Source: Pararhizobium sp. IMCC3301 (GTDB taxonomy: Bacteria; Pseudomonadota; Alphaproteobacteria; Rhizobiales; GCA-2746425). From it: DNA of 64,000 nucleotides. Below the pieces are notes generated by a model. The model ran no database searches. It saw nothing but the letters and a program-made list of their open reading frames with translations, and was not told the origin of the DNA. Both the position numbers and the translations under genes were made by a program. Location of the stretch: assembly GCF_030758315.1 (NCBI RefSeq), contig NZ_CP132336.1, positions 2,509,001 to 2,573,000 of the forward strand, read 5' to 3'. Below are positions 50,125 through 63,741 of the stretch, one piece after another. Numbering within the stretch: position 1 is the stretch's first letter; each line of letters begins with the position of its first letter.

Positions 50125-51492
50125 ATGCAAACAAGGCTGGCCATGCGAATATTTCTGGCTCTTCTGCTGTTTCTCAGCTTTGCCGTAGCGGGCGTCTTTG
50201 CCCAGTCCTCACTGGACGAAACCGCACCTGTGGCAACGGATCTGATCGGCAGCGAACCCATTGCTGCGGAAACCGGAATTCCGGCTGACAGCGCCATTGC
50301 CGCACGCATCTCCGCCATCTTTGCCGAGATCGATGCCTTGCGTGCTGTCGATGTGTCGGTCAGATCAGGGGTAGTGCTGCTGCAGGGCGCTGTACCCGAC
50401 AAAGCGGCAATCGAGCAGGCCGCGGCTCTTGCTGGCCGGGTGGAAGGCGTGGTGGCGGTCTCCAGCCAGTTGCTGGAAGACACCTCGGTCAGCGAACGCA
50501 TCGTTCCGATCATGGATAGGCTTTTCACCCGCCTGCAGCGCGCCATCAATTACATCCCGCTGCTAACCGTCGCCGTGCTTGTCTTCGCGCTGGTCGGAAT
50601 CATCGGCTGGTGGTTGGCCGCCCGCAGGTGGCCGTTTGCGAAAATCGCGCCCAATGCCTTCATATCCGATCTGCTGCGCCAGGTGGTTCGTCTGGCTTTT
50701 CTCGGCATCGGGCTGGTTCTGGCACTGGATATTATGGGCGCCACTGCCATTATCGGAACTGTTTTGGGGGCGGCCGGTATTGTCGGTCTTGCGGTCGGGT
50801 TTGCAGTGCGTGACACGGTTGAAAACTATATCGCCAGCATTCTGCTCAGCCTGCGTCAACCATTCCGGCCCAATGATCATGTCGAGATTGACGGTCATGA
50901 GGGCCACGTCATCATGCTGACCGCGCGCGCCACGGTTCTGCTCAGCCCTGATGGCAACCACATCCGCATTCCCAATGCTACAGTGTTCAAAAGCGTGATT
51001 ACCAATTACTCGCGTCATCCGGAACGCAGATTTGATTTTGAAATGGGCATTGCCCCGGATGGCGATCTGCAGCAAGCGGTTGATATCGGATTAGCGGTGC
51101 TGAAACAGGTCGATTTCATTCTCGACAAACCGCTGCCGGAAGCCCGCATTGAAGGATTGGGAGATTCCACGGTTCAGCTCTGGTTTGCCGGCTGGATTGA
51201 TCAGCGCGAAACCAGCATGGTGCTGGCACGGGGCCAAGCCATCCGCCTGATCATGCGCGCCCTGGAAGATGCCGGCTTTGAACTGCCTGAACCGGGCTTG
51301 CGCGTTGCTCTGACCCAAGACACGGCAAAGCCATTGGCGAAACCTGCCGCTGTAAAGAAGAAACCTGTCGCTCCCGTAGACGCAGCCGATATCGCTGCCA
51401 ATGACGGCATCACGGAAATCATTGATGAAGAACGCGCCCAGATGGCGGATCAGGATCTCCTCAAGGAAGATGCACCCCAGGAAATGGGTTAG
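50125..51492 (+). CDS. Mechanosensitive ion channel with BON domain (MscS family)
   Basis: A 455-residue protein. A signal peptide (RIFLALLLFLSFAVAGVFAQ) is followed by a periplasmic BON domain (VDVSVRSGVVLLQGAVPDK and VEGVVAVSSQLLED, near residues 75-120), two or three transmembrane helices, and the MscS pore and beta domain (GLAVGFAVRDTVENYIASI, then LRQPFRPNDHVEIDGHEG). MscS channels open under membrane tension and release solutes on osmotic downshift. The C-terminus is a charged proline- and alanine-rich tail. A second ATG at 50143 with AAGG before it may be the true start. Confidence 0.92.
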   Translation: MQTRLAMRIFLALLLFLSFAVAGVFAQSSLDETAPVATDLIGSEPIAAETGIPADSAIAARISAIFAEIDALRAVDVSVRSGVVLLQGAVPDKAAIEQAAALAGRVEGVVAVSSQLLEDTSVSERIVPIMDRLFTRLQRAINYIPLLTVAVLVFALVGIIGWWLAARRWPFAKIAPNAFISDLLRQVVRLAFLGIGLVLALDIMGATAIIGTVLGAAGIVGLAVGFAVRDTVENYIASILLSLRQPFRPNDHVEIDGHEGHVIMLTARATVLLSPDGNHIRIPNATVFKSVITNYSRHPERRFDFEMGIAPDGDLQQAVDIGLAVLKQVDFILDKPLPEARIEGLGDSTVQLWFAGWIDQRETSMVLARGQAIRLIMRALEDAGFELPEPGLRVALTQDTAKPLAKPAAVKKKPVAPVDAADIAANDGITEIIDEERAQMADQDLLKEDAPQEMG

Positions 51493-55242: not shown

Positions 55243-56064
55243 ATGTCTACTGAAAAGGGAATTTCACTCAAGACGACTGATCGGGACTGGTGGACAGTTC
55301 ACCGCGGAGCCTCGCCGGTCCTGGGAACGGCGATCCACAATGGTCATGAGGTTGATGCCACGCTGGAAGATCAGATGGCGCTTCCCGAAGATGACCGGCT
55401 GCGCGAGGAAGATCCATTCACCGAGTTCATCATTCGCGATCTGCCCAACCGGATTGCTTTCCACAGATCGCGCTTTGCCGTCGATCTCAACCGTCCCCGC
55501 GAGGAAGCTGTCTACCTGTCGCCTGAGCAATCCTGGGGGCTGGAAGTATGGGCGGATGACCCAACGCCCGAAATGATTGAGCATTCGCTTCAGATGCATG
55601 ATCATTACTATCTGATGCTGAAGATGATGCTGCGCGAACTGGAAGAGCAGTACGGTCATTTCATTGTTCTGGACATTCACAGTTACAATCATCGCCGCGC
55701 CGGGCCGCAAGCACGGCCCAGCGACCCCGATGACATGCCGGAAATCAATATCGGGACCTACTCAATGGACCGCGAGAAATGGGCCCATGTGGTTGATCCG
55801 TTCATGGACAAATTGCGGGAATTCGAGTTTCGCGGTCACAAGCTGGATGTACGCGAAAATGTCGCGTTTCAGGGCAAGGGTGAGCAGACCCGGTTTATTC
55901 ATGATACTTTCCCCAAATCCGGATGTGCCATTGCGATTGAGTTTAAAAAATTCTTCATGGATGAATGGACCGGGAAGCCTGATCGCGAAGCGCTGGTCGC
56001 AATGCGCAGCATGATTCAATCAGCTTTGCCTCTGCTGGAAGGCATTATTGAAGGAATGTCATGA
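55243..56064 (+). CDS. N-formylglutamate amidohydrolase-like protein
   Basis: A 273-residue protein of the FGase family, which has the carboxypeptidase-like fold. Metal and substrate motifs are TAIHNGHEVDA near residue 30, RFAVDLNRPRE near 84, and VLDIHSYNHRR near 144. The ATG at 55243 follows a GGGACGAG stretch and gives the expected N-terminus. It overlaps the next gene by four bases (ATGA). Classical FGases release glutamate from N-formylglutamate in histidine degradation, but no hut genes are present and the neighbours suggest amide cleavage on another substrate. Confidence 0.87.
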   Translation: MSTEKGISLKTTDRDWWTVHRGASPVLGTAIHNGHEVDATLEDQMALPEDDRLREEDPFTEFIIRDLPNRIAFHRSRFAVDLNRPREEAVYLSPEQSWGLEVWADDPTPEMIEHSLQMHDHYYLMLKMMLRELEEQYGHFIVLDIHSYNHRRAGPQARPSDPDDMPEINIGTYSMDREKWAHVVDPFMDKLREFEFRGHKLDVRENVAFQGKGEQTRFIHDTFPKSGCAIAIEFKKFFMDEWTGKPDREALVAMRSMIQSALPLLEGIIEGMS

Positions 56065-57935
56065 GTGACAGTGGGCAGAAAATCCAGCCGGTCAACGCCA
56101 TAGTGGCGGCTCTTGCGGATGCAAAACCTGTCCGGGCTACGCTGAAGTCCGGTGCGCGGCTGCATATTGACCGGCCACTTCCGTTTATCTGCATTCATCA
56201 CAGAAAGGATGACCTTCAACAGGCCGCTTATGACATTACAACATCCAATGCGTCTTATTTGGTCTCCTCCGAACTTGCCACAGATGTCGAGGCCCTGAAC
56301 CGGATCGGTCACAAAATGATTGAGCGGTTCGGAGCGTTTTTGGTGATTGAAGTGACTGAATTGGATCAGGACACTTTGCTGAGCGACGACAGTCCCTATC
56401 TGCCTGATTTCGAAATTCAGCTTGAGACCGAACAACGACCTGAAACTCGGGCAGCAATGGAGGCCGCAGCCGAAGCGATTGAGAGCGTGGCCGTCAGATA
56501 CCGCTCTCCGGTTGTTGACAGAATTATCTCCGACAGGCGTGACAACTCGACATTGGCCGGACTTGACCCGGCGATCGGGTTTCTCTCAATAAGGTTTGCT
56601 CCCATCTATCGGCAACCCGACAGCGCAGCGGTTTATCCCGAACTTCTTGAACGGGTGGTCGCCAATATTTTTGACGCGCTGCTGCGCGGGGTTGCCGCCT
56701 TTACCACAAAGACTGGTGCGCTTGAACCTGCGTCCCACCGGGCTCTGGGCCGCAGATCATTTGTCGACACGGTCAAAAGGCTCGACCGGCAGATCGACAA
56801 GGTCTGTGGTTCGTTTGATTTTCTCATGGCGGTTACGCCGATCAACACCGCAGAAGCCTGGGGAAAATTCAGTGACAATGCGCAGCAATCCCCACCTGAG
56901 CTGCTTTATCGTCCTCTCACTGTGGAAGTTGATTTTGAGAAGAAGACACTTCATTCCGTTGCTTTTGAAAATCTGGAAGACCCTGTCCTTTACGAAATCT
57001 ACCGGGAAAAACAGCAGGAGCTGGACTTGCAGCTGACTGCAATTGACCTGCGCAACACACCACGGTTCAAAGAGGTCAGTCGGCTTCTGTATGGTTCGGT
57101 TGAAGCGGAGCTTTTGACGATGGCGCAGGATATTCTTGCGCTGCCCCACAGCAGTGGACAGGCATCCAAAGGCGAAGGCGGGCTGGAAGGCCACGTCGAC
57201 TGCTACGCGCTGAAGGCGGCGGCCCGTCAGATGGTGGCTGAGTATCAGGCCGACTATGCCGGCTTTGATGTCGAAATTGTCATCCGCGATGACCTGCCGC
57301 CGGGCATGATGGTTTCTGGCAATGGCCTGATGATATCGCGCAATACGCGCATGGCGCGAAGCCGGGTGCAGGCATTGCTCAGCCATGAGATAGGCGTTCA
57401 TCTGATGACCTATTTCGCCGGTGATGCGCAAGGCTTGAGAATTTTCCGCACCGGACTCGCCGGTTATGAAGGCATTCAGGAGGGATTGGCAGTCTTCGCC
57501 GAGTACCTTGTCGGTGGTTTGACCCCCGGCCGTCTGCGCCTGCTTGCCGGGCGCGTGGTCGGATGCGCGGCAATGCTGGAAGGTGCGGATTTTATCGAAA
57601 CCTATCGGCTGCTGACCCGGGAGCATGGATTTTCCAGCAGCGCCGCCTTCAATCTGACGGTACGGCTGTATCGCTCCGGCGGCTTGGCGAAGGATGCCAT
57701 TTATCTGCGTGGTCTGCGCGATGTTCTCCTCCATATCGGGGCGGGAAAATCGCTCGATCCGTACTGGCTGGGAAAATTCTCCAAAGCCCAGTTTCCGAAG
57801 ATTGAGGAACTTGCCACACGCGGGTTGCTCAGGACGCCGCCGGTCTCCCCGGCCTTTCTCACCGCCAGAGGTGCAGCAAAGCGCCTTGCTGCAGCCCGTG
57901 CAGGCCTGGCACCCGCCGACCTCATTTCAGGATAG
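56061..57935 (+). CDS. QEGLA-motif metallopeptidase (DUF1704 / TIGR02421)
   Basis: A 624-residue protein named in databases as 'flavohemoglobin expression-modulating QEGLA motif protein'. The zinc site is visible: SHEIGVH at residues 441-447, in the form HExxxH, and IQEGLAVFAEYL at 472-483 whose glutamate is the likely third ligand. DUF1704 also includes the animal tyrosine carboxypeptidases that remove the last tyrosine of alpha-tubulin, so a carboxypeptidase-type activity is expected. No signal peptide is present. The ATG overlaps the FGase stop, and the ATP-grasp gene follows eight bases after the stop, so the three are a single translational unit. Confidence 0.9.
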   Translation: MSDSGQKIQPVNAIVAALADAKPVRATLKSGARLHIDRPLPFICIHHRKDDLQQAAYDITTSNASYLVSSELATDVEALNRIGHKMIERFGAFLVIEVTELDQDTLLSDDSPYLPDFEIQLETEQRPETRAAMEAAAEAIESVAVRYRSPVVDRIISDRRDNSTLAGLDPAIGFLSIRFAPIYRQPDSAAVYPELLERVVANIFDALLRGVAAFTTKTGALEPASHRALGRRSFVDTVKRLDRQIDKVCGSFDFLMAVTPINTAEAWGKFSDNAQQSPPELLYRPLTVEVDFEKKTLHSVAFENLEDPVLYEIYREKQQELDLQLTAIDLRNTPRFKEVSRLLYGSVEAELLTMAQDILALPHSSGQASKGEGGLEGHVDCYALKAAARQMVAEYQADYAGFDVEIVIRDDLPPGMMVSGNGLMISRNTRMARSRVQALLSHEIGVHLMTYFAGDAQGLRIFRTGLAGYEGIQEGLAVFAEYLVGGLTPGRLRLLAGRVVGCAAMLEGADFIETYRLLTREHGFSSSAAFNLTVRLYRSGGLAKDAIYLRGLRDVLLHIGAGKSLDPYWLGKFSKAQFPKIEELATRGLLRTPPVSPAFLTARGAAKRLAAARAGLAPADLISG

Positions 57936-57943
57936 GAAAAACC

Positions 57944-58990
57944 ATGCGCATCGCATTTTTTGTCAACGCCATCAAAGATGAGTATCCCCGTTTCACGACA
58001 ACGGTTTTTGCCCTGGCGGCGCTCTCGCGGGGCCATGAAGTGTGCTATATCACCCCCGGCGGCTTCGTCTTGCGAGCCGACGATACCCTTCATGTCAGCG
58101 TTCTGAACCTGCCGAAGAAAGCGTTTAAGAAGGTGGAGACACTGCACAAGGCATTGCAGTCCGAGGAGACCACGCGCGAAACCATCGACGTGACCGGAAT
58201 TGATGTTTTGATGCTGCGCAATGATCCCTCTCAGGATGCCGATACGCACCCATGGGCGGCGCAGGCTGGCCCGATGTTCGGCCGGCTGGCTGCGGATCGT
58301 GGTGTTCTGGTGGTCAATGATCCTGACGGTTTGTCACTGGCTCAGAACAAGCTGTATCTGCAGGGCTTTCCGGAGGCGGCAAGACCGGCTTCACTGATTT
58401 CCAAAAACCTCGAGGAAATCCGGGATTTCATCGGCAGCCAGCCCGAAGGGATCATCATCAAGCCATTGCAGGGCTCAGGCGGCAAGAATGTTTTCAAGAT
58501 CGACGGTCCTGATGATTCCAACATCAATCAGATATTCGAAGCCGTCAGCGAAGAAGGCTATATGATCGCGCAGGGCTTCATGCCGGAAGCCAAGGGTGGC
58601 GATGTGCGGGTCTTCGTCATGAACGGTACACCGTTGGAACGGGATGGAAAATACGCGGCACTGCGCCGTGTCCCTGCGAAAGGTGACGTTCGCTCCAACA
58701 TGCACGCCAAGGGCACAGCGGTGAAAGTGGAGATGACCGACAAGATCCTGGCTGTTGCAGACCTTGTGCGCCCGAAACTTATTCATGATGGATTGTTCCT
58801 CGTCGGTCTGGATATCGTCGGTGACAAGATCCTTGAGATCAATGTGTTCACGCCCGGGGGTATGTGGAGCATATGCGATATGCACGACACCGACTTTGGC
58901 GAGAGTGTCATCATGTCGCTTGAACGCAAACTTGAGATGCGCGAAAGCAGCCACGGCAATTTGTCGAACCGGGAGCTGGCCGTGCTTTGA
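57944..58990 (+). CDS. Glutathione-synthase-like ATP-grasp ligase
   Basis: A 348-residue ATP-grasp enzyme. The N-terminal domain starts like GshB (MRIAFFVNAIKDEYPRFTTT). ATP-binding elements are GIIIKPLQGSGGKNVF with K173, and the metal-binding pair E298-x-N300 in ILEINVFTPGGMW. The family joins an amine to a carboxylate through an acyl phosphate. True glutathione synthetase is normally elsewhere in the genome and not linked to these genes; the operon with a peptidase and an amidohydrolase suggests a peptide-modifying or small-molecule ligase. The acceptor and donor are unknown. Confidence 0.88.
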   Translation: MRIAFFVNAIKDEYPRFTTTVFALAALSRGHEVCYITPGGFVLRADDTLHVSVLNLPKKAFKKVETLHKALQSEETTRETIDVTGIDVLMLRNDPSQDADTHPWAAQAGPMFGRLAADRGVLVVNDPDGLSLAQNKLYLQGFPEAARPASLISKNLEEIRDFIGSQPEGIIIKPLQGSGGKNVFKIDGPDDSNINQIFEAVSEEGYMIAQGFMPEAKGGDVRVFVMNGTPLERDGKYAALRRVPAKGDVRSNMHAKGTAVKVEMTDKILAVADLVRPKLIHDGLFLVGLDIVGDKILEINVFTPGGMWSICDMHDTDFGESVIMSLERKLEMRESSHGNLSNRELAVL

Positions 58991-59018: not shown

Positions 59019-59303
59019 CTACTCAGCCAGCTGTGGAGCAGGTCTTTCCTCGTCGACTTTCTGCAGCGGCGACTCCTCGGCGATGGATGGCAGGCTGCGC
59101 AACACGATGCCGAGCAGCGGCGGCACGGTCAGCAGCGCCGATGTGGCAAGGCCGCCCACCACCACAGACCCCAGGCCGCGATACAGTTCCGAGCCTTCGC
59201 CGGGAAACAGCACCAGAGGCAACATGCCGAACACGCTGGTCAGCGTGTTCATGATACTCGGCCGGAGCAATCGGTCCTCGCAACCTGACGTGGCCATTCG
59301 CAT
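59019..59303 (-). pseudogene. Remnant of an RND efflux permease C-terminus
   Basis: The minus strand encodes about 78 residues (NTLTSVFGMLPLVLFPGEGS and onward to RPAPQLAE, stop at 59019) closely similar to the last residues of the intact RND permease that ends at 60547. The part lacks all upstream RND sequence: similarity begins at about 59265 and the codons before that are unrelated. An in-frame six-base deletion removes two residues in the segment that reads SALLTLLTVPP in the intact gene. Many synonymous differences show it is not a recent copy. No function is expected. Confidence 0.85.
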
Positions 59304-60546: not shown

Positions 60547-63500
60547 CTACTCTGCCGGCTGTGGCGCAGGCCTTTCCCCGTCAATGCTCTGCGCCGGTGC
60601 CTCATCGGCAATCGATGGCTGGCTGCGCAGGACGATGCCAAGCAGCGGCGGTACGGTTAGCAGCGTCAGCAGCGCCGATGTGGCAAGTCCGCCAACCACC
60701 ACAGAACCCAGGCCGCGATACAGTTCCGAGCCTTCACCGGGAAACAGCACAAGCGGCAACATGCCGAAGACGCTGGTCAGCGTGCTCATGAAGATCGGCC
60801 GGATGCGGTTGCGTGTGGCTTCGATGATCGCCGCTTTCGGTTCCAGACCGTCTTCGCGCAGATGATGCAGCGACTGATGCACGATCAGGATTGCATTATT
60901 GACCACAATGCCAACCAGAATGACAAATCCCAGCAGGGTCAGCATGTCCAGCGGCTGGGTTTGAATAAGGTTGAGAGCGGCCAGGCCGCCAACCCCGCCT
61001 GCAGCCGCCACCGGCACCGATATCATGATCACCAGCGGCAGAATAAAACTTTCAAACAGCACCGCCATCACCAGAAATACGATCAGCAGCGCTATGACCA
61101 GATTGATCGAAATCGCATTCCAGGTCTGGGTCAGCTGATCTGCCGTGCCCGACAGGGTGAAGCGCACGCCGGGCGGCAGTCCGCCCTGTTCAAGCACCGA
61201 CACGACTTCGGCTTGCAGAATTTCCAGCGCCGTTTCCAGCGGCAGCGCATTTGAGGGCCGCACTTCCAGCGTCACGGTTCTGAGCCGTTCGCGATGTCTG
61301 ATCTCGGTCGGCCCGGCCGTCACCGTCACCCGCGCCAGAGCTTCCACAGGCACGATCTGGCCGGACTGGGTGACAACCGGATAGGCGCCGATATCCTGGG
61401 TTCTTTGCGCGGCGGCATTGCTGTCGTCGCCTTTGAGGGTCAGATCTATGCGCTCGCCATCGACGGTGATTTCGGCAATCCGCACCCCGTCATTATAGGC
61501 ATCCACCGTTGTCGCCAGATTGGCGGCCCCGACGCCGGCATCAGCCAGCCGCAGACGGTCAGGCGTCAGGCGCACTTCCGGCGCGCCCAGTTCCAGGCCC
61601 GGGATCGGGCGGAACTGATGGCCTTCGTTGCGTGGCAGCCGCCCGGCAATGATACCGGCTGCCTGCTGGGCAACGCCCAGAATATCTTCCAGATCGGGCC
61701 CTGAAACATTCAGTTCTATGGCGCGTCCGCCGCCAATGCCGCGACCAAACAGGGACGGCTGGGTGATGAAACCGAACGTGCCCGGTTCGGAAAAAATCGG
61801 GCGCGACAGGATCGGTATCAGTTCACCGATGCGGCTGCCATTTTTGGCGTCGGCACCGACAAATGAATTACTCGGTGTGGCGACAAAGAAGAAACTGTTG
61901 ATGGCCGGCGGTCCTGCCGGATCGTCCGTCTCCAGGCTCCACATCGGCTCGGCGACATCTTCAATGCGCTTGGCAATGCCGGTCGTGGTTTCCAGATTGT
62001 AGCCCGGTGGAGGAATGACAATCCCGAAGATCAGATTGCGGTTGCCTTCCGGCAGATATTCCAGTTCCGGCAGGTAATACCAGGCCGCCGTCAGCGCGCC
62101 GCCGCCAATCGCTGCCACCATCACCAGCCCGAGCACGCGGCTGGCAATGGTTGCCCGGACATAGGCCATCACCAGACGTGAGAAAAACCGGGCGAAATGA
62201 TCGATCACCGGCAGGCCGACCGGCTCCAGCTTGCCGCGGTTGCCCAGCAACCGGCTCGACAGGGCCGGAATCACCGTTACTGCAACCACCAGCGACAGCA
62301 CAACTGACACCGAGATTGCCACAGCAATGTCGCGGAACAACTGGCCTGCTTCCAGATCCATCACCAGGATTGGAATGAACACCATGACTGTGGTCAGGGC
62401 CGACACCAGAATGGCACCCCAGACCTGCCTTGCACCCTCATAGGCGGCCCGCCGTGAGGAATAGCCCATCTGCCGGAAGCGGAAAATGTTCTCCAGCACG
62501 ACAATCGCCGCATCCACCACCATGCCGACCGCAAAGGCGATGCCCGCCAGCGAAATCACATTCAGTGTCCGGCCCATCGCCGCCATGGCCACAAAGGACG
62601 CCACCACCGAGACCGGAATTGCCAGCGAAATCACCAGCGTGGCGCGCGGCGAGCGCAGAAACAGCATCAGGATGAAAGCCGCCAGAATGCCGCCGACCCA
62701 GATGTTCTGGATCACCAGATCAATGGCGCTGTTGATATACAGCGTTTCATCATAGACCTGATTGAGCACCAGCCCGGCCGGCGCAATATCGCGTTGATTC
62801 AGTGCTTCAAGGGTTTGCCGGACGCCTTCCATGGTCTCAATGACATTCGCCCCGGCATCGCGCACCGCATTGATGGCAATTGCGGGCTGGCCCTTGTAGC
62901 GGATGCGGGCAGTGGCTTCCTTGTAGTCGAAGCGGACCGTTGCAACATCGCTGACCAGAACCCGGCCCAGCCGGTCGGTGCCCAAATCGGTCTCGCTGCG
63001 CAGCACCACGCTGCTGACCGCCTCCAGCGTGTTCAACTCGCCCTGTGCGCGGACAATGTAGCGCCGCTTGCCTTCCTCCACATCTCCGGCGGAGATCGAG
63101 ATATTCTCCGAGCGCAGTTTTGAGATCACCTGCGGAATGGTCAGGCGGAACCGCGCCAGCCGCTCGGGATTGATAACCACGCGCAATTCGCGTGAGACGC
63201 CGCCAAACACATTGACATTGGCAACGCCTTCAACCCGCTCCAGCTGATCCTTGACGACATCTTCAATGAAGTCACCATATTCGACGATCGGGCGGTTGTT
63301 GCCTTCCGCCCGGATCAAAATGAACCAGGCAATCGGGCTGTCCTCCGCGCCGGAGGTGTTGAGCCTCGGCTGCCCGGCTTCATCGGGATATGAGTTGACC
63401 CGGTCGAGTCGGTTGGAGACCAGCAGCAGGGCGCGGTCCATATTGGTGCCGATGGCAAATTCCAGGGTGACTTCGGCGCGCCCGCTCTGGGAGCGCGACA

Positions 63501-63741
63501 GCATGGTCTCCAGACCATCCAGTCCGCGCAGCACATCTTCCTGCGGATTGACGATTTCGCGTTCAACTTCGGCCGGTGCGGCGCCGCCCCAATCCGTTGA
63601 TACCAGGATAATCGGTTTGCGCACATCCGGTGCCAGCTGGATCGGGATCGTGCTCAGTGCGACCAGACCGAACAGCACCGCCATCAACACCGCCGCGATA
63701 ACCGCAATCGGGCGTTCAATGGCATATTTGATGACGTTCAT
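60547..63741 (-). CDS. Efflux RND transporter permease (AcrB/hydrophobe-amphiphile type)
   Basis: A 1064-residue RND inner-membrane pump with twelve expected helices. It begins with the family start NVIKYAIERPIAVIAAVLMA, and has the proton-relay region GMVVDAAIVVLENIFR (D and adjacent residues in helix 4) and VGIVVNNAILIVHQSLHHLR (helix 10 region). It exports drugs, dyes or lipophilic compounds from the periplasm with an adaptor and an outer-membrane channel. The adaptor gene ends three bases upstream (63745). The C-terminal sequence is partly repeated in the remnant at 59019-59303. Confidence 0.95.
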   Translation of the reverse strand: MNVIKYAIERPIAVIAAVLMAVLFGLVALSTIPIQLAPDVRKPIILVSTDWGGAAPAEVEREIVNPQEDVLRGLDGLETMLSRSQSGRAEVTLEFAIGTNMDRALLLVSNRLDRVNSYPDEAGQPRLNTSGAEDSPIAWFILIRAEGNNRPIVEYGDFIEDVVKDQLERVEGVANVNVFGGVSRELRVVINPERLARFRLTIPQVISKLRSENISISAGDVEEGKRRYIVRAQGELNTLEAVSSVVLRSETDLGTDRLGRVLVSDVATVRFDYKEATARIRYKGQPAIAINAVRDAGANVIETMEGVRQTLEALNQRDIAPAGLVLNQVYDETLYINSAIDLVIQNIWVGGILAAFILMLFLRSPRATLVISLAIPVSVVASFVAMAAMGRTLNVISLAGIAFAVGMVVDAAIVVLENIFRFRQMGYSSRRAAYEGARQVWGAILVSALTTVMVFIPILVMDLEAGQLFRDIAVAISVSVVLSLVVAVTVIPALSSRLLGNRGKLEPVGLPVIDHFARFFSRLVMAYVRATIASRVLGLVMVAAIGGGALTAAWYYLPELEYLPEGNRNLIFGIVIPPPGYNLETTTGIAKRIEDVAEPMWSLETDDPAGPPAINSFFFVATPSNSFVGADAKNGSRIGELIPILSRPIFSEPGTFGFITQPSLFGRGIGGGRAIELNVSGPDLEDILGVAQQAAGIIAGRLPRNEGHQFRPIPGLELGAPEVRLTPDRLRLADAGVGAANLATTVDAYNDGVRIAEITVDGERIDLTLKGDDSNAAAQRTQDIGAYPVVTQSGQIVPVEALARVTVTAGPTEIRHRERLRTVTLEVRPSNALPLETALEILQAEVVSVLEQGGLPPGVRFTLSGTADQLTQTWNAISINLVIALLIVFLVMAVLFESFILPLVIMISVPVAAAGGVGGLAALNLIQTQPLDMLTLLGFVILVGIVVNNAILIVHQSLHHLREDGLEPKAAIIEATRNRIRPIFMSTLTSVFGMLPLVLFPGEGSELYRGLGSVVVGGLATSALLTLLTVPPLLGIVLRSQPSIADEAPAQSIDGERPAPQPAE

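Follow-up and report, generated by a model that had tools for sequence, protein, structure and literature searches.

ATP-grasp ligases are paired with peptidases in several described systems, among them graspetide and other ribosomally synthesized and post-translationally modified peptide (RiPP) clusters, the RimK/RimB pair and the rlo operon (RloA-RloB-RloC) of Pseudomonas. The rlo operon of P. aeruginosa governs growth at low osmolarity and confers tolerance of it, RloA proteases being required under that condition, and RloA cleaves poly-glutamate (PMC12239564). A further relative of the enzymes described below is the animal MATCAP/TMCP group of tubulin carboxypeptidases (family PF08014), whose TMCP members are credited with tubulin-tail and deglutamylase activity (PMC10499314). 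Here we analysed a 64,000-nucleotide stretch of the Pararhizobium sp. IMCC3301 genome (contig NZ_CP132336.1, positions 2,509,001 to 2,573,000; hereafter the window), which carries a three-gene operon encoding an N-formylglutamate amidohydrolase (FGase)-family protein, a bacterial PF08014 metallopeptidase named for its QEGLA motif, and an ATP-grasp ligase. We favour, at slightly less than even confidence, the reading that the three enzymes form a conserved unit serving to make and to break an amide bond when the osmolarity outside is low.

All three open reading frames (ORFs) lie on the forward strand: FGase at 55243..56064 (273 residues; PF05013 83.4 bits, Pfam cut-off 28.9), the QEGLA/MATCAP-type metallopeptidase at 56061..57935 (624 residues; PF08014 280.2 bits, cut-off 27) and a predicted GshB/RimK-like amide ligase of subfamily NF009110 (PRK12458) at 57944..58990 (348 residues; 448.3 bits, cut-off 408), which also matches the Pfam GSH-S_ATP family PF02955 at 168 bits, far above cut-off. 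The first junction is an ATGA overlap (56061-56064) and the second a gap of eight bases (57936-57943), and the genes form a tight operon. A sequence-only reading of the window had reported three tightly packed genes of these families, with HExxxH at residues 442-447 and QEGLA at residues 473-477 of the middle protein and no substrate protein encoded among them; each of these points was upheld, and no convincing conserved small ORF adjoins the operon. Compared with RimK/RimB and rlo, whose peptidases are retropepsin-like, the operon instead combines an FGase with a MATCAP-type enzyme, its ligase is GshB-like rather than RimK-like, and it has no RloB-like protein; a Pfam scan of eight window proteins, operon included, found no retropepsin-like protease gene.

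The arrangement recurs widely. A QEGLA profile scan with one genome per species gave 94 loci, of which the best 80 were read, with partner genes found by profiles built from three seeds (L051 and L094 among the 80 are almost certainly the same records as seeds L013 and L014). An ATP-grasp gene adjoins QEGLA on the same strand in 78 of these 80 loci, and all three genes are present in 67 by a script test, or about 72 after the rest were read by eye: FGase is adjacent but beyond the distance rule in four (L034, L073, L085, L093) and downstream of the ATP-grasp gene in L077, three loci (L050, L063, L084) run into contig ends, and L080 has no FGase in the 2.6 kb available upstream. Operon members in the ligase tree span 12 named phyla, many as metagenome assemblies. 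Independently of the QEGLA scan, a 398-genome sample of the phylum holds PF08014 in 47 genomes and NF009110 over cut-off in 14 (16 genes); by eye, 15 of the 16 NF009110 genes adjoin a PF08014 gene, and the remaining one (G285) starts 48 bases from a contig end. PF08014 occurs in 13 of the 14 NF009110 genomes counted against 34 of 384 others (Fisher P 2e-12). A 150-genome sample of the family of G415, taken as Vibrionaceae from its Vibrio and Photobacterium relatives, has NF009110 in 54 genomes, with 53 of 54 such genes adjoining PF08014. By contrast, 40 arbitrary 20-kb stretches from 21 operon-bearing genomes gave no match to the three operon profiles at E 1e-6, and the arrangement thus exceeds chance. 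The unit is found on rhizobial megaplasmids, and in Sinorhizobium meliloti 1021 the FGase, QEGLA and ATP-grasp genes are all located on pSymB. Among titles in the literature we found no account of the three-gene operon; Iyer et al. 2009 (Mol BioSyst), on amidoligases and ATP-grasp neighbourhoods, might already predict it.

The operon ligase is a GshB-type ATP-grasp protein. In a PDB sequence search the window protein matches GshB (1gsa) at 114 bits and shares with it K136, K173, R222, R242, R250, D290, E298 and N300; its ATP-grasp loop (residues 239-257, ALRRVPAKGDVRSNMHAKG; 58658..58714, forward strand) carries R242, R250 and N252, which are invariant and likewise present in GshB and RimK-like rows. 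It nevertheless misses both glutathione synthase equivalogs (TIGR01380, 182.1 bits against 299.05; NF003573, 202.9 against 272) and the RimK alpha-L-glutamate ligase model (TIGR00768, 61.7 against 143.4). Operon ligases differ consistently from 12 GshB proteins at positions 104-105 (W and A inserted), 302 (F) and 305 (G), and read NVF-SPGG where GshB has NVTSPT. Of the 106 operon ligases in a 126-row tree, which drew a long-branch warning from the program, 101 share a single clade and the five fused-type ones stand apart; the 12 GshB with two intermediate rows group separately (support 94). The family is also discrete by score, the 16 NF009110 genes of the 398-genome sample lying at 436-488 bits and the next protein at 241. 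GshB passes its cut-off in 16 of 48 operon genomes and in none of the other 32, many of the 48 being metagenome assemblies of untold completeness, and the host genome carries a separate GshB at another place, besides its single PF08014 gene and five FGases (operon's included). Because the equivalog cut-offs are missed, a separate GshB exists in the host, operon genomes without GshB occur and the clade is distinct, we regard the NF009110 ligase, judging by its sequence, as a discrete family and not GshB. Two fused-type relatives fall near the boundary: L144 just passes NF003573 (276.5 against 272) and L145 fails it (268.7), and both fail TIGR01380. Gammaproteobacterial Lysobacter and Luteimonas ligases nest among those of Sphingomonadales and relatives, a placement that reads as a sign of horizontal transfer of the three-gene unit.

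The metallopeptidase shares its family, fold, and HExxxH and QEG motifs with MATCAP/TMCP. Its HExxxH motif, HEIGVH (57384..57401, forward strand), has H442, E443 and H447 in 80/80 members, and Q473-E474-G475 of the QEGLA motif (57477..57491, forward strand) is likewise present in 80/80; from comparison with the EEG motif of TMCP1 (PMC10499314), E474 is presumed to be the third metal ligand. The AlphaFold2 (AF2) model (pLDDT 93.7) has human MATCAP as its closest PDB match (7z6s; Foldseek E 2.4e-7, TM 0.68 on target), with 7z5g also matched. The operon protein differs from the animal enzymes in being bacterial, in its operon with a ligase, where no tubulin is present, and in an FGase-like N-terminal domain. 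Foldseek also gave weak matches of the model to FGase and related folds, and the QEGLA and FGase profiles were therefore compared: QEGLA residues 43-207 (56187..56681, forward strand) align to FGase residues 88-262 (hhalign probability 92, E 6.5e-7), an alignment that leaves out the H32 part of FGase. The position equivalent to FGase H146 is His in 3/80 members and Trp in 56/80, and that equivalent to D144 is mostly Glu (64/80). Given this profile homology and the loss of the H146 equivalent, the N-terminal third is most likely a decayed FGase domain, and a fused FGase::QEGLA polypeptide may be the ancestral layout. The window protein narrowly misses the QEGLA equivalog TIGR02421 (335.1 bits against 338.65), which all six QEGLA proteins scanned from other loci pass (343.9-445.2 bits). 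A different, shorter PF08014 subfamily occurs in the window's class (L011, L012, L015), with no NF009110-type ligase in the stretch seen and beside ORFs that look NUDIX-like or ACT-like.

The FGase shares its fold and PF05013 with HutG and other N-formylglutamate amidohydrolases: its AF2 model (pLDDT 92) has 2q7s as its closest PDB fold, 2odf is also matched, and beyond FGases the matches are to carboxypeptidases, weakly, at E 1.6e-3 and worse. It parts from HutG in scoring 28.9 bits against the TIGR02017 deformylase cut-off of 278.75 and in its linkage to a ligase and a MATCAP-type peptidase. H32, G34, E55, D57, R77, D81, D144 and H146 are identical in 67/67 aligned FGase ORFs (above 240 bits and under 420 residues, the window's included). 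Its sequence and model thus point to an FGase-family amidohydrolase, or metallocarboxypeptidase-like protein.

The three genes occur in several architectures. Besides the order FGase, QEGLA, ATP-grasp seen in the window, an ATP-grasp gene precedes a single FGase::QEGLA polypeptide in L128, L141, L144-L146 and L224, and an FGase::ATP-grasp fusion precedes QEGLA in L058 and L062. Two or three ATP-grasp genes are present in 12/80 loci and two QEGLA genes in 9/80; the tandem ligases of Planctomycetota and Acidobacteriota form separate orthologous clades across species in the 126-row tree, as would suit a small peptide assembled step by step. Among 20 further stretches, ATP-grasp is present in eight, and the other 12, made up of 11 short-QEGLA loci and the long-type L136, have neither partner of QEGLA. 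In the G415 family, ATP-grasp lies beside 52/56 long (fused-length) PF08014 ORFs and 1/11 shorter ones (P 4e-8); the shorter set includes a 53-residue fragment, and its sole ligase-adjoining member (G627) has a separate FGase ORF between.

The fused forms allow the fate of the FGase site to be followed. To this end 46 fused proteins were examined at ten positions of the FGase motif; they come from 28 of 30 loci of a G415-family scan, from a second set (11) and from seven other loci, with three genomes occurring twice. All ten are intact in the 33/33 fused proteins read beside an ATP-grasp gene, out of 52 such in the G415 family, and the motif is decayed in two genomes with no NF009110 gene at all (G620, G676). 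A plasmid of Vibrio sp. HDW18 (L225, 7974-9965), outside the 150-genome sample, likewise has a fused gene in which FGase D57 and H146 are replaced and no ATP-grasp lies within 8 kb; a maoP (DUF413) gene lies upstream of it. Two other fused genes lack an adjoining ligase: G753 keeps the motif at a contig end, and G736, with an ATP-grasp gene some 53 kb away, is intact in the part read. HExxxH and QEG stay intact in the fused proteins with a decayed FGase motif. Because the FGase motif is decayed in three cases where the ligase is missing while HExxxH and QEG persist, FGase seems to work with the ligase, and QEGLA more broadly, on the strength of few decays.

The surroundings of the operon point to osmotic physiology. 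Neighbour genes were called by codon use, and 238 immediate neighbours of 73 loci (at most two genes a side, at least 110 residues, proteins above 700 residues cut to 600; near-copies and repeats of genus or family, 15 of 88 loci, set aside) were scanned with Pfam, which returned seven MscS mechanosensitive channels and six CNNM proteins; clustering of neighbours gave no fixed fourth operon gene. We then searched 1.151 Mb of flanks of 88 loci (the 80 from the QEGLA scan and eight of the 20 further stretches) with our own profiles at E 1e-6. MscS genes number 20, in 16 of the 88 loci, against 1.14 expected from a density of 228 genes in 231.1 Mb of 48 operon genomes (that count made with Pfam at E 1e-3), and CNNM/CorC genes number 11 against 0.65 expected. 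The 40 control stretches hold one MscS and no CNNM gene, and 11 short-QEGLA loci hold neither. Collapsing two related-locus pairs leaves 14 MscS loci (P 2e-11), a figure that rests on the genome-wide density rather than on the 40 controls. The MscS profile was built partly from L177, itself the neighbour channel of L046; neighbouring channels were also picked up independently by Pfam. Most CNNM loci come from Planctomycetota and so represent few independent events, an estimated five or so giving P 6e-4. The window has its own MscS-family channel with a BON domain (50125..51492, forward strand; PF00924 58 bits) 3.75 kb upstream of the operon, a neighbour rather than an operon member, which was not counted in the enrichment.

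Expression data agree with this setting. In RNA-seq of Photobacterium damselae at 1% against 3% NaCl, A0J47_RS17020, named GshB, is 38.4-fold up and the adjacent tag A0J47_RS17025 (QEGLA) 27.5-fold up (PMC10308900); in the related Photobacterium sp. DA100 an NF009110-type ATP-grasp gene directly precedes a fused FGase::QEGLA gene. The same report gives RimK as 52.2-fold up at low salt, and RimK-type functions are described as commoner in brackish than in marine genomes (PMC10219603). In three genomes (G610:C41, G601:C2, G611:C52) MscS genes are located some 6-11 kb from RimK-like ATP-grasp genes, a hint that the link to mechanosensitive channels may extend to RimK.

In the mechanism we propose, the NF009110 ligase would join an amino acid, or a similar amine, to a carboxylate with ATP, and the FGase, as a metallocarboxypeptidase-like amidohydrolase, would act on the ligase's product or feed, because its active site tends to be lost where there is no ligase. 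The QEGLA/MATCAP protein would be a metallocarboxypeptidase, would contact FGase through its FGase-like N-terminal domain and could also serve alone. The substrate would most likely be a small acidic peptide-like solute; such a solute is preferred over a protein tag because of the tandem ligases, the kinship with GshB and the lack of an encoded target. The sequence-only reading had given FGase a carboxypeptidase-like fold and had proposed comparing the peptidase with MATCAP and looking for co-occurrence of the families across bacteria. The unit proves conserved well beyond close relatives, its ligase is distinct from the host's glutathione synthetase, the peptidase model is closest to MATCAP, and the FGase model matches carboxypeptidases weakly. 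Its add-and-remove amino-acid cycle survives in part: a ligase with two amide hydrolases is a fair reading of the sequences and models, but the likeness to tubulin tyrosination is not supported, since nothing ties the unit to tyrosine or a protein tail, and the ligase is GshB/RimK-like, its Pfam matches at E 0.001 being GSH-S_ATP, RimK, GSH-S_N and ATPgrasp_ST, with no match of the tubulin tyrosine ligase (TTL) type. What the present analysis adds to that reading is the osmotic setting of the unit, the FGase-like domain of QEGLA, the fused layouts and the tandem ligases.

Ribosomal peptides were considered as substrates and rejected: among 3505 ORFs of 30-120 residues within 2.5 kb of the 88 loci, shorter peptides not having been looked for, there is no convincing conserved candidate, and in having no convincing precursor peptide nearby the operon differs from graspetide and RiPP clusters. 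The small-ORF clusters listed from at least three loci are antisense-ORF-like by eye or come from close relatives.

Among other accounts, the one that fares best is a one-way pathway in which the two hydrolases free or trim the ligase's substrate, for example by deacylating an N-acyl amino acid, with the unit serving either synthesis or breakdown of a metabolite but not both. The cases of FGase decay in the absence of a ligase are as compatible with an FGase acting before the ligase as with one acting after it, and the PF05013 family name is that of a catabolic deacylase; two different amide-cutting enzymes with a ligase, fused in varying order, nevertheless fit opposing reactions at least equally, and we consider the one-way account unlikely, though a serious contender. 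Reversible modification of a protein tail, in which the ATP-grasp enzyme adds residues to a target's C terminus and QEGLA together with FGase cuts them back, on the pattern of tubulin tyrosination or polyglutamylation or of RimK/RimB, seems to us rather improbable: the structure closest to QEGLA is that of MATCAP, a carboxypeptidase of protein tails, and RimK/RimB and the poly-glutamate-cleaving rlo set offer a parallel pairing, but the operon encodes no target, the ligase scores higher against GshB, which acts on small molecules, than against RimK (182 against 62 bits), with no TTL match, and tandem ligases fit stepwise peptide building better. That a second GshB and a HutG of ordinary glutathione and histidine metabolism lie together by chance, as the annotations of NF009110 (glutathione synthetase) and PF05013 and the marginal NF003573 score of L144 might suggest, is very improbable and was rejected in view of the equivalog scores of both proteins, the host's separate GshB, the operon genomes in which none passes cut-off, the separate clade, and the adjacency to QEGLA in 15/16 and 53/54 cases.

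Several observations weigh against the make-and-break, low-osmolarity reading. No FGase lies near L057, L072 or L086, the last with its ligase also reversed, and L091 has neither FGase nor ATP-grasp beside QEGLA. Eleven short QEGLA loci have neither partner, so that QEGLA is not tied to the ligase, and the long-type QEGLA of L136 has no FGase or ATP-grasp match in its 17-kb stretch (its genome, G269, has another QEGLA copy beside an NF009110 gene). Only three FGase decays were seen where the ligase is missing, and L145, from another family, has a ligase and yet a decayed FGase motif. MscS or CNNM genes lie near a minority of loci (25/88), loci were treated as independent, and against the 40 control stretches alone the excess of MscS-positive loci reaches only Fisher P 0.02. 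The expression data come from one species, where gene identity is taken from names, adjacent tags and a relative's layout rather than from the sequences. Finally, we know of no activity for any bacterial member.

Other features of the surroundings stand apart from these arguments. Just downstream of the operon, a minus-strand 94-codon ORF (59019-59303) has a translation that, by eye, is very like the C-terminal portion of an RND-like efflux protein encoded at 60547-63741 (minus strand). It appears to be a partial duplicate of that gene, and a MarR gene and a cupin-like gene separate the two. LysR-type regulators make up 8 of 106 neighbour proteins scanned (L070-L146), and a large gene that looks cation-chloride-cotransporter-like lies near the operon in 5/80 loci (L039, L045, L054, L062, L096).

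Current names invite misreading of results: bacterial members of the MATCAP family are labelled 'flavohemoglobin expression-modulating QEGLA motif protein', which says little, and their partner ligase goes under the name of glutathione synthetase, as in the low-salt study, where the 38-fold gene is treated as GshB (PMC10308900). Once the three genes are recognised as a unit, its function can be tested, the ligase's product offered to the two hydrolases makes a defined assay, and S. meliloti 1021 is a tractable host. In its fullest form, which we think doubtful, the proposal is that of an undescribed hypo-osmotic system of at least 12 bacterial phyla, in which a GshB-derived ligase, an FGase and a MATCAP-type carboxypeptidase would make and break an acidic peptide-like solute (or tag), and from which, as a bacterial setting, the tubulin detyrosinases of animals would later have been recruited. 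If true, this would be a second type of ATP-grasp/peptidase set in low-osmolarity physiology, beside rlo, and would place the enzymes shaping the tubulin code in a bacterial context.

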